DNA of 43,921 bases from Calditrichia bacterium (lineage in GTDB: Bacteria > Calditrichota > Calditrichia > JAJRVZ01). The DNA lies in NCBI GenBank assembly GCA_023132435.1, contig JAGLYF010000223.1:1-43921 (forward strand), read 5' to 3'. Positions 1-33,594 of this stretch are shown piece after piece; position 1 is the stretch's first letter; the number at the start of each line of letters is the position of its first letter. The notes beneath the pieces were generated by a model. It ran no database searches and was not told the DNA's origin. It worked only from the letters and a program-made list of their open reading frames with translations. The position numbers and the translations under genes are program-made.

Positions 1-986
1 GCAATCTCTTTAGGATCAGCTAACAAACTTTTAGCATGTGTGTTATCCTCTTCTGCATTTTGACCACGTGGTCTGGTACCGGCAATCGGTATTATTTCCA
101 ATTGTTGGTCCTTTGAACTTATTACTGATTCCGGAGAAGATCCGATTATCTGATAATCAATAAAATCCAGATAAAACATGTACGGAGAAGGATTGATATT
201 TCGCAGAGCGCGGTAAACCTGAAAGATATCTCCGGAATATTCAACCTGAAATTTTTGTGAGAGCACAACCTGTAAAATGTCCCCGGTAAAGATGTATTCT
301 TTTGATTTTTCTACCGCTTTTTTAAAATCTTCCTTTTTAAAATTTGACTTTTCACTCTCGATATTCGCGGAAAAGTTTAATTCTATTTGCAAGGAACGAT
401 TTAATTTTTCAAATAAAATTAACAGTCGGTTCTGTGCATCCTGATACAGTCGGGACATATCGCTGTCTTTATCGATAAAAGTGTTGGCAATTAGGATAAC
501 TTCATTTCTCAGATGATCAAATGTAATCAGACTATCATAAAAAGCCATGATCGCGTCATCACTTTTAACCACATCCTTCTTTGGTTCCGGAAGATCTTCA
601 ATACACCGAATCATTTCATACCCGATAAACCCCACGGTACCGCAGGAAAACTGTGGAAGTCCATCGATGGACATGCTTTGATATTTATTTAGTTCATCTT
701 TAAGAACCTCAAAAATATCTTTTGTGATGATATGATTATGGGAATATTCCTTTACGATAGTTTTATCTGCCTCAGCAACCAGAACCCTGTAAGGATTTTG
801 ACCAATAAATGAATATCGTCCCACCTGTTCACCTTTTTCCACGCTTTCTAATAAAAAAGAGTAATTTCCACGATCTCTGATTTTAAGATATGCCATAACC
901 GGGGTTATAAAATCAGCGTTGATTTTTCTGTATACCGGTACGATATAACCTGGTTTTGCAAGATTTTTAAATTCTTCAAAAGTCAT
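1..986 (-). CDS. trpE: Anthranilate synthase component I, TrpE (C-terminal part outside window)
   Basis: The frame is open from ATG at 986 to the window edge, giving about 328 N-terminal residues. It catalyses the chorismate-to-anthranilate step of tryptophan synthesis together with a TrpG glutamine amidotransferase. The N-terminal regulatory domain shows the LLES motif (Trp feedback site in TrpE proteins), followed by GRYSFIG. Later the start of the chorismate-binding domain is visible (TGDILQVVLSQ, then SPSPYMFYLDF-like and GSSPE). The catalytic C-terminus lies beyond base 1. It could in principle be PabB, but the LLES/GRYSFIG N-terminus and the Trp-codon leader directly upstream argue for TrpE. 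The likely RBS is weak (GGGA about 11 nt before the ATG). Regulation by transcription attenuation is read from the leader at 1124-1323. It is presumably the first structural gene of a trp operon continuing leftward. Confidence 0.93.
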   Translation of the reverse strand, partial: MTFEEFKNLAKPGYIVPVYRKINADFITPVMAYLKIRDRGNYSFLLESVEKGEQVGRYSFIGQNPYRVLVAEADKTIVKEYSHNHIITKDIFEVLKDELNKYQSMSIDGLPQFSCGTVGFIGYEMIRCIEDLPEPKKDVVKSDDAIMAFYDSLITFDHLRNEVILIANTFIDKDSDMSRLYQDAQNRLLILFEKLNRSLQIELNFSANIESEKSNFKKEDFKKAVEKSKEYIFTGDILQVVLSQKFQVEYSGDIFQVYRALRNINPSPYMFYLDFIDYQIIGSSPESVISSKDQQLEIIPIAGTRPRGQNAEEDNTHAKSLLADPKEI

Positions 987-1123: not shown

Positions 1124-1155
1124 AAAAAAAGCCCACCTAAAACTAAGTGGGCTTT
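1124..1155 (-). terminator. trp attenuator (intrinsic terminator in trpE leader)
   Basis: On the minus strand a 9-bp stem, AAAGCCCAC pairing with GTGGGCTTT (1155-1147 with 1136-1128), is followed at once by seven T residues (1130-1124). It lies 29 nt after the leader-peptide stop and 137 nt before trpE. A competing antiterminator can form between leader bases 1209-1202 (AGGTGGGT) and the 5' arm plus two bases (1152-1145): 8 pairs including two G-U. The mutually exclusive pairing is inferred by eye, not folded. Confidence 0.82.
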
Positions 1156-1184
1156 ATATATTTTAACTTTATATAAAATTCTGA

Positions 1185-1271
1185 TCAAGCGAACATACGC
1201 CACCCACCTCTGAGATTATGCCACCACCAATTTCCAAACTGTGACTGATATGTCTGCTTATATAACTGCAT
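1185..1271 (-). CDS. trpL: trp operon leader peptide (28 residues, four Trp codons)
   Basis: ATG at 1271 opens a 28-codon frame ending in TGA at 1187-1185. Codons 15, 16 and 17 are three consecutive TGG (1229-1221), and codon 24 is a fourth TGG (1202-1200). Four Trp in 28 residues just upstream of trpE is the hallmark of a leader peptide that senses charged tRNA-Trp. An AGGAT Shine-Dalgarno (1280-1276) lies 5 nt before the ATG, and a near-consensus promoter (1295-1323) puts the transcript start only about 16 nt upstream. The last third of the frame (codons 21-24) is the antiterminator strand, so a ribosome stalled at codons 15-17 would leave it free to pair, while one reaching the stop codon would cover it and let the terminator form. 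Confidence 0.88.
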   Translation of the reverse strand: MQLYKQTYQSQFGNWWWHNLRGGWRMFA

Positions 1272-1294
1272 TTTTATCCTATCAAATTTCTTTG

Positions 1295-1323
1295 ATTATA
1301 AAAAGATTCAATCACGAAAGCAA
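1295..1323 (-). promoter_or_regulatory. Promoter of the trp leader
   Basis: On the minus strand TTGCTT (1323-1318), a 17-nt spacer and a perfect TATAAT (1300-1295) form a sigma70-type promoter. The predicted +1 is near 1288, about 16 nt before the trpL start. A family A repeat module (1341-1371) ends less than 20 bp upstream of the -35 box. Confidence 0.75.
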
Positions 1324-2114: not shown

Positions 2115-2747
2115 ATGACTCTGAATCGGTTGGTTTTAGGATCAGCGCTGGTGATAATGATGACAATGCTTATCGCCGTCCCTTTTAATAAGACATCAGA
2201 TGCGAGCCCTGGTAACAACACGGAAATGGTTCCAAATATTATCGTTATAAAATTTATCGAGGACCCACATGTCGAGATAAATAAACTACAAACCAGTCAT
2301 ACTGAACTCAACGATCTTCTTACCAAACATGCCGTTACATCCCTGCAACCATTGGTAAAAAATAACCGGTTTACTAAATCAAATTCTAATATATATGATC
2401 TTTCAAATATTTATTATGCTACCTTTTCCGGTAACCAATCCCCGGCAGAAGTTGCCGCAAACATTGAATTAAGTCCCCTTATTGAATATGCAGAGCCAAA
2501 ATATGTTCACTATATAAACGTTCTCCCCAACGACTCCCTTTATCAGTTTCAGGAACCTTATTATGACATCATTCAGGCTCCGCAGGCCTGGGATATCGTA
2601 AAAGGAGAAAACAGTAATGTGATTATCGCTATCGTCGACGGGGGCACAGATATCCGACACCCCGATCTGGCCGATAATATCTGGAGAAACGATGCGGAGG
2701 TTAATGGCACGGAAGGTGTGTCGATGATGATGACAATGGTTATATAG
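2115..2747 (+). CDS. Secreted subtilisin-family (S8) protease, N-terminal part, frameshifted
   Basis: The start ATG at 2115 has a good RBS (AGGAGA, 7 nt upstream). Residues 1-30 form a Sec signal peptide with a hydrophobic core. About 110 residues of propeptide follow, and the S8 catalytic domain begins with the Asp motif IAIVDGGTDIRHPDL. The frame then fails: after GTEGV it reads SMMMTMVI and stops. In the frame two bases on, the sequence continues as DDDDNGYIDDLYGWNF, the usual continuation in this family (NGVDDDGNGYIDD). Removing one GT from GTGTGT at 2716-2721 restores GVDDDDNGYIDD exactly. A 2-nt duplication, real or a sequencing error, is therefore the simplest explanation. The rest of the protein is at 2723-5077, about 985 residues in all if repaired. 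Confidence 0.8.
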   Translation: MTLNRLVLGSALVIMMTMLIAVPFNKTSDASPGNNTEMVPNIIVIKFIEDPHVEINKLQTSHTELNDLLTKHAVTSLQPLVKNNRFTKSNSNIYDLSNIYYATFSGNQSPAEVAANIELSPLIEYAEPKYVHYINVLPNDSLYQFQEPYYDIIQAPQAWDIVKGENSNVIIAIVDGGTDIRHPDLADNIWRNDAEVNGTEGVSMMMTMVI

Positions 2748-5077
2748 ATGACCTATATGGCTGGAATTTTGCCAATGAAAGCGGTGATCCTACCGGATTG
2801 GAATCCACACCTTTTAATGCCGATCATGGTACCCTTACGGCCGGGATTGTCAGTGCTGTCAGTGATAATTTAACCGGTGTCTCGGGCGTAAGCTGGAATG
2901 CAACCGTTATGGCGATTAATGTCAGTTCGGAAACAAATGACCGGGCAATTGACCATGGTTATGACGGGATTATCTATGCCGCCGGAAACGGCGCCGATGT
3001 TATCAGCTGCAGCTGGGGTGCCTATACTTTTTATACCCATACTGGCCAGAATGTCATGCTCTATGCGAATTCGATGGGTGCCGTCGTGGTAGCATCTGCG
3101 GGAAATGATAACACGTCTGATCTGTTCTATCCAGCCGCTTTTGAAAACGTTCTCTCTGTGGCTGGAACCGATACCAATGATATTAAATGGGAGCGTTCAA
3201 ATTACGGAAGGCATATCGATCTGGCTGCACCGGCGGTATCGATATACAGCACCCTAGCAGATGGGCGTTATGGTATTGCCACGGGCACCTCTCTTTCTGT
3301 ACCGTTGGTGTCCGGGGTAGCGGGACTGGTAAAAGCACATAATCCCGGTTGGACCGGCATGCAGGCCGGAGAACAGGTACGTGTCACGGCCGATTCAATC
3401 CCGGGCTATGCAGGGGAACTGGGCCGGGGCCGGCTCAATGCCTACCGCGCAGTTACAGAAAGCTCACCTTCAATCCATTTTGTGGATTATGACTACATTG
3501 ATGAAAACGATAACCGGTTCATTGAACCCGGAGAGCGTATAGAAGTGTATATTACGCTTATAAACTATCTGGCGATGGCTAATAACATAAAGATAACCCT
3601 GTCCCCTTCTTCTGATTACCTGACGATGATTGATGATGAGGCATCCTTATCTTCCCTTGGGACACTTGAGGAGATTACCCTGTCCGATCCCTTTGTCTTC
3701 GATGTGGCTGAGAATACGCCGGGTAATCCTCTAATAAAATTTGATCTTCAGATAGAGGCGGATGGTTATAGGGATCAGGACCGATTTATTTTTGAGCCTA
3801 TATCTCCAAAGAAAATCTGGACAAAAGATCCCAACAATCCTATACTTTCCGGTGGAGCAAGTGGAACATGGAACAGACACGTGTTTATGCCATGTGTCCT
3901 ATACAACACCGATTCTTCCAGATACGAGATGTGGTTTGGCGCGTCTATCGGACCTGATGCACAAGCTGTTTGGAAACCATACCGTATCGGTTTCGCAATC
4001 TCCCCTGACGGAATTAGCTGGACAATGCATTCGGAGCCGGTACTGGAAGCAGATACAGGCACATGGGACGAATCAACAGTGGAAAAACCGAGGGTGATTC
4101 AAGAAAATGGCACATATAAAATGTGGTATACAGGCTGGAGCCCAAAATTTTTGATTGTTGGAATCGGATATGCTACCTCACCGGATGGAATTACCTGGAC
4201 AAAGCATGACACTCTTGTTATGGGACGCGGAACGGCATCCTGGGAAGTACGTGGTCCAGCTTATTGCTCTATAATGCCTACTCAGGGAGGAACATACAAA
4301 ATGTGGTATACCGGCAACAATAGTGCTAATCCTATTTCAGCAATAGGATATGCGACTTCGGATGATGGAATAACCTGGACAAAGGCAGAAAGTGTCAATC
4401 CTGTTTTAACAATAGGATCACCTGGTCAATGGGATGATGGTCGTGTAAGTCGACCACACGTTCTTTTCATCAATAATAAATACCATATGTGGTATACAGG
4501 CCAGCGAGGATTCTATGATACGCGAGAGATCGGATGGGCTACTTCTGTTGATGGTATTCATTGGAACAAATATAACGATCCAAATACAACATCAACGTTA
4601 TATTCAGACAGCGATCCTGTGTTAAAGCGTTCTGACGGCCAATGGGATGCAAGCAATCTTGGATCAGTAACTGTGATGCTCGAAGGAGACTCATTGCGTA
4701 TGTGGTATGGAGCTAGCAGGACACCTGGAGAAACGAACCTATGGAGAATCGGTCATGCCACGGCACCGGTTATCGTTGATGTTATCGAAGATTATGATGT
4801 TGCACATATCCCTGAAGAATATTCACTTTTACAAAACTACCCCAATCCCTTCAATCCTAAAACAATTATCAGTTATCAATTACCAATGATCAATGAGGTC
4901 GAACTGGTTATATATAATCTTATTGGACAAAAGATTGCAACACTGGTTTCAGAAAAACAGGAAGCGGGATATCATCAGGTAGAATGGGATGCTTCGGGAT
5001 TTGCTAGTGGGATATACTACTATCAGCTTAAGACAGGTGAATTTCAGGATGTGAAGAAAATGATTTTGATCAAGTGA
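2723..5077 (+). CDS. Subtilase core, five-bladed propeller and type IX sorting domain (3' part of frameshifted gene)
   Basis: This is the continuation of the protease that starts at 2115. It holds the catalytic His (NADHGTLTAGI), the oxyanion Asn (ASAGNDNTSD) and the nucleophile Ser (GTSLSVPLVSG). A linker β-domain follows, then about 350 residues of five similar blades with the pattern YKMWYTG...IGYATSxDGITWTK, as in GH43/GH32-type five-bladed propellers. The last ~80 residues are a type IX secretion sorting domain (NYPNPFNPKTIISYQLP, IYNLIGQKIATLV, ending KKMILIK). Subtilase plus glycosidase-like propeller is an unusual pairing. I see no basis for assigning the propeller a catalytic role rather than glycan binding. 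An independent start would have to be TTG at 2798, which would lack the catalytic Asp. A strong terminator follows. Confidence 0.82.
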   Translation, partial: DDDDNGYIDDLYGWNFANESGDPTGLESTPFNADHGTLTAGIVSAVSDNLTGVSGVSWNATVMAINVSSETNDRAIDHGYDGIIYAAGNGADVISCSWGAYTFYTHTGQNVMLYANSMGAVVVASAGNDNTSDLFYPAAFENVLSVAGTDTNDIKWERSNYGRHIDLAAPAVSIYSTLADGRYGIATGTSLSVPLVSGVAGLVKAHNPGWTGMQAGEQVRVTADSIPGYAGELGRGRLNAYRAVTESSPSIHFVDYDYIDENDNRFIEPGERIEVYITLINYLAMANNIKITLSPSSDYLTMIDDEASLSSLGTLEEITLSDPFVFDVAENTPGNPLIKFDLQIEADGYRDQDRFIFEPISPKKIWTKDPNNPILSGGASGTWNRHVFMPCVLYNTDSSRYEMWFGASIGPDAQAVWKPYRIGFAISPDGISWTMHSEPVLEADTGTWDESTVEKPRVIQENGTYKMWYTGWSPKFLIVGIGYATSPDGITWTKHDTLVMGRGTASWEVRGPAYCSIMPTQGGTYKMWYTGNNSANPISAIGYATSDDGITWTKAESVNPVLTIGSPGQWDDGRVSRPHVLFINNKYHMWYTGQRGFYDTREIGWATSVDGIHWNKYNDPNTTSTLYSDSDPVLKRSDGQWDASNLGSVTVMLEGDSLRMWYGASRTPGETNLWRIGHATAPVIVDVIEDYDVAHIPEEYSLLQNYPNPFNPKTIISYQLPMINEVELVIYNLIGQKIATLVSEKQEAGYHQVEWDASGFASGIYYYQLKTGEFQDVKKMILIK

Positions 5078-5276: not shown

Positions 5277-5834
5277 ATGGTGGAAAATGAAATTTCGGAA
5301 ATCATCCTGGATTGTTGTTTTATAATTCATCGAAGATTAGGACCTGGATTGCTGGAATCTGTTTATGAAGAAATCCTTGCCTATGAATTATCAATGAAAA
5401 ACATGAGTTTTGAAAAGCAAAAAGAAATACCCCTTTTGTATAATAGACTTAATTTTGGTGTGGCGTTTAGAGTGGATTATAGAATGCTATCAAAAGTACA
5501 AAGTAGCGCAGTGCATTGTATCGATGCCTTCCCGGTTGAGGTGGAAACGCACATGGAGGGAAACGTACCTTCATTTCAATTGGTTGGTTTGCCGGATAGT
5601 GTAGTTAGAGAGAGCCGCCAGCGGGTAATCTCAGCGATAAAAAACTCAGGCTTTACATTTTCGCTTAATCGCCGGATCACTATCAATCTGGCTCCGGCCG
5701 ATCTGAAAAAGGCGGGATCATCCAATGATCTGCCTATCGCGGTTGGTATCCTCAGCGCACAGGGATATATCAGTGAAGAAAAACTGGGGAGGATATTGTT
5801 ATCCTCGGTGAACTGGCCCTGGACGGGTCCTTAA
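5277..5834 (+). pseudogene. Chimeric frame: truncated GxxExxY protein joined to ComM N-terminus
   Basis: Residues 1-67 match the start of the GxxExxY family: RRLGPGLLESVYEE contains the name motif, and FGVAFRVD corresponds to the family's conserved ...RxD segment. At residue 70 the frame passes into a complete ComM start, MLSKVQSSAVHCIDAFPVEV, and continues through FQLVGLPDSVVRESRQRV and ITINLAPADLKKAGSSNDLP, the Lon-like N-terminal domain. Near 5790 a frameshift occurs: the ComM segment ILGELALDGSLRP is still readable in another frame from about 5801 to 5837. The 185-residue frame ends at an ectopic stop. The GxxExxY part has lost its C-terminal nuclease-like half and ComM its ATPase domain. 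It may be translated, but both halves are incomplete. Confidence 0.78.
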
Positions 5835-32770: not shown

Positions 32771-32931
32771 CTAACCGCAAAAATGCAAAGGTTTTTATCC
32801 ACGAATTACACTAATTAACACGAATTTTTTATAGATACAAGAAATTGAAGGTGTTAATATTCAGTCATATTTTTTAAATTAGTGAAAATTCGTGGAATTC
32901 GTGAACCCATTTACTTTGCGTCGTTGCGGTT
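32771..32931. repeat. Family A nested palindrome
   Basis: Outer arms are TAACCGCAAAAATGCAAAGG and CTTTGCGTCGTTGCGGTTA. Inner arms are TCCACGAATTACACTAATTA (then ACACGAATT) and AATTAGTGAAAATTCGTGGA. The right outer arm ends at the TAA stop codon of the CYTH gene, so the last bases of that gene belong to the repeat. Confidence 0.8.
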
Positions 32932-33440: not shown

Positions 33441-33594
33441 CTGGATAATTCACCTCTCGCAAAAATATAAAGTGATTGGGTCCACGAATTTCACGAATTT
33501 TCTCGAATATCTATTAAAAATTCGTGTAATTCGTACTAATTAGTGTAATTCGTGGATAAAAAACTTTACGTCTTAGCGCCTTTGCGCGAGATAT
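33441..33594. repeat. Family A nested palindrome, most complete copy
   Basis: CTGGATAATTCACCTCTCGC, AAAAATATAAAG opens the left outer arm; CTTTACGTCTTAGCGCCTTT and GCGCGAGAT closes the right. Inner arms are TCCACGAATTTCACGAATTT and AATTAGTGTAATTCGTGGA. Bases 33595-33716 are A/T-rich with nothing recognised. Confidence 0.8.

Follow-up and report, generated by a model that had tools for sequence, protein, structure and literature searches.

The window, by which we mean the whole stretch of 43,921 nucleotides that was analysed, belongs to a genome of 3.7 Mb in 360 contigs that falls within the class and phylum of Caldithrix, named Calditrichia and Calditrichota. This placement follows from a class mate of the window genome, G004, whose DPP III is one residue off PDB 6EOM, the C. 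abyssi enzyme, and which is therefore Caldithrix abyssi. Near the start of the window, on the minus strand, a truncated trpE is preceded by a set of short elements, as follows.

1295-1323, minus strand: candidate sigma-70-type promoter, TTGCTT (1323-1318), a 17-nt spacer and TATAAT (1300-1295), read from the sequence
1276-1280, minus strand: Shine-Dalgarno-like AGGAT, 4 nt 5' of the leader ATG
1185-1271, minus strand: leader peptide ORF of 28 codons, MQLYKQTYQSQFGNWWWHNLRGGWRMFA, with a TGA stop; class mates have Trp-rich leaders at the equivalent place
1221-1229, minus strand: three tandem TGG (codons 15-17), predicted stall site from the sequence and from nascent folding with a ribosome mask
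1182-1229, minus strand: competing upstream 1:2-like hairpin, predicted at -10 to -11 kcal/mol, from folding and the first hairpin of RF00513
1202-1209, minus strand: strand 2, the antiterminator 5' strand, AGGUGGGU, within the leader ORF
1156-1198, minus strand: inner helices of the antiterminator in the predicted fold, 1198-1192/1162-1156 and 1190-1187/1169-1166
1128-1155, minus strand: intrinsic terminator hairpin, with 5' arm 1155-1144 (strand 3) and 3' arm 1139-1128 (strand 4)
1124-1130, minus strand: seven-T tract of the terminator
3-986, minus strand: trpE, anthranilate synthase component I, first 328 codons, truncated by the contig end, from profile matches
1008-1112, 1374-1489, 21180, 32800-32903 and 33483-33554: sites of a repeat built on ATTCGTGTAATTCGTG

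The trpE product matches TIGR00564 (E=1.7e-83) as well as PF04715 and PF00425. The trp operon is seen only as far as trpE codon 328, its remainder lying beyond the window, and in the rest of the genome the best trpG-like match belongs to a pabA-pabB-pabC-like cluster. The leader itself could be read directly at 1271-1185 (minus strand) as the initial annotation had described it, with 28 codons and TGG at codons 15-17 and 24; the last of these (TGG at 1202-1200) has one base in common with strand 2, and the stop codon lies 198 nt from the trpE start. The terminator hairpin with its seven T also stands, but the stem is of 12 bp and not 9, closing a 4-nt loop at -16.6 kcal/mol. The promoter had been called near-perfect. 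Indeed, its TATAAT is perfect and its 17-nt spacer right; however, TTGCTT agrees with TTGACA at only 3/6 positions, and a consensus promoter scan did not list this TTGCTT/TATAAT site and gave 3 promoter-like sites versus 4.0 in shuffles, which is not above chance, so that the description was overstated.

Dispersed inverted repeats built on ATTCGTGTAATTCGTG gave 12 matches within 3 mismatches against 0.46 expected. A copy of about 100 nt lies between the trp terminator and trpE and accounts for a gap of about 140 nt there, compared with 20-80 nt in most relatives; because of this dispersed repeat, an assembly fault between terminator and trpE is conceivable. The genome's own hisG leader likewise has repeat-like sequence, and a gap of about 219 nt follows its terminator. 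On the plus strand, fragments of a ComM/YifB-type Mg-chelatase gene lie at 1599-1868 and 5277-5834, about 3.4 kb apart, and comprise a PF01078 part and a PF13541 part, the latter fused in frame to a PDDEXK_3 N-terminus. Between the two fragments a protease-like secreted protein is encoded (2115-5077), subtilisin-like and with a C-terminal sorting-type tail, which is split in two frames at about 2747-2798. The split Mg-chelatase gene beside the trp leader may represent a broken gene, a rearrangement or an assembly fault.

The nascent minus-strand RNA was folded with a mask standing for the ribosome on the 5' side and with the polymerase at varied 3' ends. With a mask to 1212 or 1209, as for a ribosome on codons 15-17, the antiterminator, together with its inner helices, reaches -17.6 or -16.0 kcal/mol once 1145 has been transcribed, about equal to the terminator (-16.6 kcal/mol). 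It drops to -7.1 kcal/mol with a mask to 1203, and to 0.0 kcal/mol with a mask to 1173, as when the ribosome has reached the stop, where the terminator is uncontested. The proposed pairing of bases 1209-1202 with the terminator 5' arm at 1152-1145 was seen in these folds (shuffle p of about 0.01-0.03 for the pairing of strand 2 with the terminator), and comparison of folds across positions of the ribosome mask bore out the exclusion of one structure by the other: by prediction, and by the co-change described below, terminator and antiterminator are mutually exclusive, the antiterminator being free with a stalled ribosome and covered with a ribosome at the stop. In the complete leader RNA, the terminator was the preferred fold in every case, so read-through must be kinetic and depend on the order of synthesis, as it does in E. 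coli. The initial annotation had further described a compact switch that lacks a separate pause hairpin. However, untranslated nascent RNA folds strand 2 into a hairpin at 1229-1182; in RNA extending to 1153, the probability that strand 2 pairs upstream is 0.69 (0.47 for its 3' portion alone), and once strand 3 emerges the antiterminator beats this hairpin (0.88). The first hairpin of the Rfam Trp_leader alignment falls on the same stretch, and a weak 1:2-type hairpin is thus predicted over the Trp codons of the window leader.

The leader has tandem codons for the amino acid that the operon makes (WWW, codons 15-17, before trpE), and an intrinsic terminator lies between the leader ORF and trpE. 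We are highly confident that trpE and whatever follows it in the operon are controlled here by a transcription attenuator of the classical ribosome-mediated kind. Computation shows that its parts are there, that terminator and antiterminator exclude each other, and that the element is amino-acid-specific, conserved and co-changing; from this we infer where transcription starts, that the leader is translated, and that stalling and termination do occur. In this mechanism, RNA polymerase would start near 1288 and a ribosome would trail it, translating the leader ORF. If charged tRNA-Trp is at hand, the ribosome would pass codons 15-17, reach the stop codon at 1187-1185 and cover strand 2 (1209-1202), upon which the terminator at 1155-1128 would form and transcription would stop near 1124. 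When Trp is scarce, the ribosome would stall on codons 15-17 with strand 2 exposed just ahead of it, and the exposed strand could pair with 1152-1145 before the 3' arm is synthesised, allowing transcription to enter trpE.

A plain promoter-proximal intrinsic terminator, or a constitutive attenuator, in which the Trp codons are incidental is the rival that survives best, and even so it is very improbable. Such a leader might arise, for example, if a G-rich strand 2 were selected as RNA, with GGUGGUGG encoding Trp by chance; indeed, GGUGGG-like sequence is common to strand 2 and tandem TGG, GG-rich runs easily yield TGG, and short WWW ORFs do arise in shuffled sequence. One short ORF with TGGTGGTGG was observed, versus a mean of 0.095 per shuffled window (8.5% of shuffled windows), a figure that applies to the tandem-TGG ORF alone, before a terminator and trpE just 3' of it are required; the joint chance of all three must be far below it. 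What speaks against incidental Trp codons is that leaders in the same class have Trp before trpE and His before hisG, with trpS, ilvB and leuA negative, and that clustered Trp is retained by leaders with unlike terminators (CCCACT, CCCGCCTTC, CCCTTC).

By a strict automatic rule, a tandem-Trp leader followed by a terminator precedes trpE at 8 of 19 loci of the class; by-eye addition of L007 (WNAWYW) and L008, the 5' end of which is cut by the contig, brings this to 10/19, so that the search proposed upstream of trpE in related genomes did find conserved leaders. C. abyssi itself has the trp leader MGKMDYSRPKKLWWNWFKIK (L006). With the same script, His leaders were found before hisG at no fewer than 20 of 25 loci of the class (L119-L142), among them the leader of the window genome itself (L129, G000:C116), MFTHPHIMIHHHRSIKRRVCLLN, with its terminator. 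Stray runs of other residues occurred at no more than 2/19 loci for trpE and 5/25 for hisG. No matching Trp leader was found at the 30 trpS loci, where one ORF was seen without a terminator, and no branched-chain or Leu leader at the 18 ilvB and 16 leuA loci; since these genes are close neighbours in several genomes, the first gene of that operon may be another. For the prephenate dehydratase gene, only 2 of 30 loci have a Phe leader. These are L228 and L231, where the Phe/Tyr-rich ORFs FSYFYFYFF and CYFYFFIYFF are followed by terminators, making them candidate Phe attenuators.

A leader that regulates translation or reinitiation at trpE, rather than transcription termination, is more improbable still, even if some attenuators do conceal a ribosome-binding site instead of terminating (PMC9413887). 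A hairpin of 12 bp whose core is rich in G+C and which ends in seven T has the form of a transcription terminator, and simple reinitiation at trpE is disfavoured since the leader stop is too far away at 198 nt. Elements of the T-box, TRAP and Trp-binding RNA types also regulate trp genes through terminators, yet membership of the window element in any such class has next to no probability, because the window had no Rfam family at cut-off and Trp_leader was the best permissive match in the region, the T-box covariance model gave no match at cut-off and none in the permissive Rfam list, inspection of 1288-1124 revealed no visible run of GAG/TAG repeats as for TRAP, and neither T-box nor TRAP leads one to expect a Trp-rich ORF that overlaps the switch strands.

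If strand 2 acts as an antiterminator, it should match its own terminator better than those of other leaders. Indeed, terminators vary among the leaders (CCCACT, CCCGCCTTC, GGGCCC/GAACCC) and strand 2 tracks them. In eight Caldithrix-class leaders, the pairing of strand 2 with its own terminator averages -15.6 kcal/mol versus -12.4 kcal/mol when swapped (p=0.001), a p-value that is somewhat favourable because membership of the 5'-arm set was chosen after the pairing was seen. When each lineage was represented by a single leader, two genomes of other phyla being among them, the swap test gave p=0.0007; L091 and L063 were excluded from these statistics as distant. The strand 2 of the window is the best in its set for the window terminator.

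A second arrangement was seen at L007, L014, L034 and L046, where 5'-arm pairing is unconvincing and sequence at the stop codon pairs with the loop and 3' arm of the terminator (shuffle p of 0.028, 0.008, 0.002 and 0.124, respectively). On the TrpE tree these four loci, together with the leaderless L017, form one clade that is separate from that of the window. Loci from the Ignavibacteria class were fetched afterwards as a test of loop/3'-arm pairing, and their own pairing averaged -13.2 versus -10.4 when swapped (p below 5e-5), compared with -8.3 versus -7.2 for the 5' arm (p=0.004); the 5' arm was favoured at L283, L288 and L289. At L265, for instance, GTTCCCGGTGAATTA would pair with the terminator loop and 3' arm. 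Judging from complementarity, leaders of the Ignavibacteria type seem to capture the loop and 3' arm of the terminator and not its 5' arm. Leaders at L265-L280, L034 and L046 often end in a CAGTGA-like sequence at the stop, to which the loop and 3' arm of the terminator are complementary. The chances seem to us evenly balanced that there are two architectures linked to trpE lineage, one 5'-arm and E. coli-like and the other an Ignavibacteria type with a strand 2 that overlaps the stop codon (often CAGTGA) and uses the loop and upper 3' arm, and that ribosome-mediated attenuation is the main way in which trp and his genes are controlled in these phyla. If this is true, capture of the loop and upper 3' arm constitutes a distinct antiterminator topology.

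Loss of the leader in close relatives that conserve trpE had been named in advance as evidence against the attenuator, and such losses do occur. The closest complete TrpE relatives, L003 and L004 (61-62%), have no leader and carry a radical-SAM-like gene upstream; a disguised leader was sought in the 145-190 nt between that gene and trpE, and none was present. However, on the TrpE tree the leader is ancestral in the window's clade, with few losses, and the absence at L003 and L004 is best read as one loss since both are nested among leader-bearing loci. L017 and L018 are two more losses, whereas L031 and L112-L115 are distant TrpE types with no leader.

Among Rfam families, RF00513 (Trp_leader) was the best, at 35.2 bits (E=1.4e-5 in a 451-base search) over the complete model, 1-100. 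The order of elements in the model, that is, a 1:2 hairpin over the Trp codons, a terminator and a T tract, is found in the window, the first hairpin having two broken pairs. The score lies below the gathering cut-off of 41 bits, as do those of 13 other trp leader loci, and the seven leader-bearing hisG loci that were scanned likewise gave no Rfam match at cut-off. By that cut-off the window leader is not a formal member of RF00513, although it operates in the manner of the E. coli trp attenuator. With the same script, the antiterminator of E. coli trpL reaches -15.6 kcal/mol (window, -17.6) and is lost in the same way as the mask advances, and the two systems share tandem Trp codons, a competing 1:2-like hairpin and a G+C-rich terminator with a T tract before trpE. 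The distance from the last tandem Trp codon to the start of strand 2 is 13 nt in E. coli and 10 nt in the window. However, the E. coli leader ORF has 14 codons and stops before strand 2, whereas the 28-codon ORF of the window passes through and beyond strand 2 with its fourth Trp codon overlapping it, and the peptides have no evident similarity except Trp. This is a variation on the E. coli type; an ORF that passes through strand 2, with a Trp codon overlapping it, is also found at L009, L011 and L013 (...SGWR...), in another family of the class.

Beyond Proteobacteria, the trp attenuators of Corynebacterium and Streptomyces resemble that of the window in having alternative hairpins, a U-tract terminator before trp operons and a leader in which UGG is repeated two or three times in tandem, but they belong to another phylum and have a conserved pairing motif of GGCC type where the window has CCCAC type (PMC1262725). 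In 2010, the authors of a survey knew of leader-peptide systems shown only in Proteobacteria and Actinobacteria before their own Firmicutes case (PMC2965389), and His leaders have been described in further Firmicutes (PMC9413887). The initial annotation had singled out such attenuation in an FCB-type genome as of comparative interest; its rarity there was overstated, as strong indications of leader-peptide attenuation before operons for amino-acid biosynthesis were published in 2021 for Flavobacterium psychrophilum, of the Bacteroidetes, another phylum, the anatomy of a trp case being absent from the main text (PMC9723704). The C. abyssi genome paper does not mention attenuation or leader peptides (PMC5317091). 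Trp leaders in these phyla may have been listed earlier, for instance in non-open reviews outside our search. Among named genomes, two Ignavibacteria, one Bacteroidetes bin and one Balneolaceae bin have the same Trp anatomy, and the same parts are found at 25 of 29 further trpE loci from the class to which one of the two Ignavibacteria belongs. TrpE identity in the scan of named genomes was at most 43%, with no Calditrichota among the matches listed.

To conclude, the window attenuator is real and well conserved and is a member of the established E. coli trp type; specificity, conservation, co-change, masked nascent folding and the E. coli positive control all agree with the ribosome-stalling mechanism first proposed for it. 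Ribosome-operated switches of this kind appear to guard trp and his genes across the Caldithrix phylum and Ignavibacteria. Standard annotation is likely to miss their leaders, as had been foreseen, because they are too short for gene calling and those tested fall under Rfam cut-offs. Our analysis adds a clear, testable trp attenuator for the Caldithrix phylum, with the same mode at hisG in most genomes of the class, and as C. abyssi is culturable, the prediction is directly checkable. The set of leaders also provides a natural comparison, in which one switch still works while both of its strands change.
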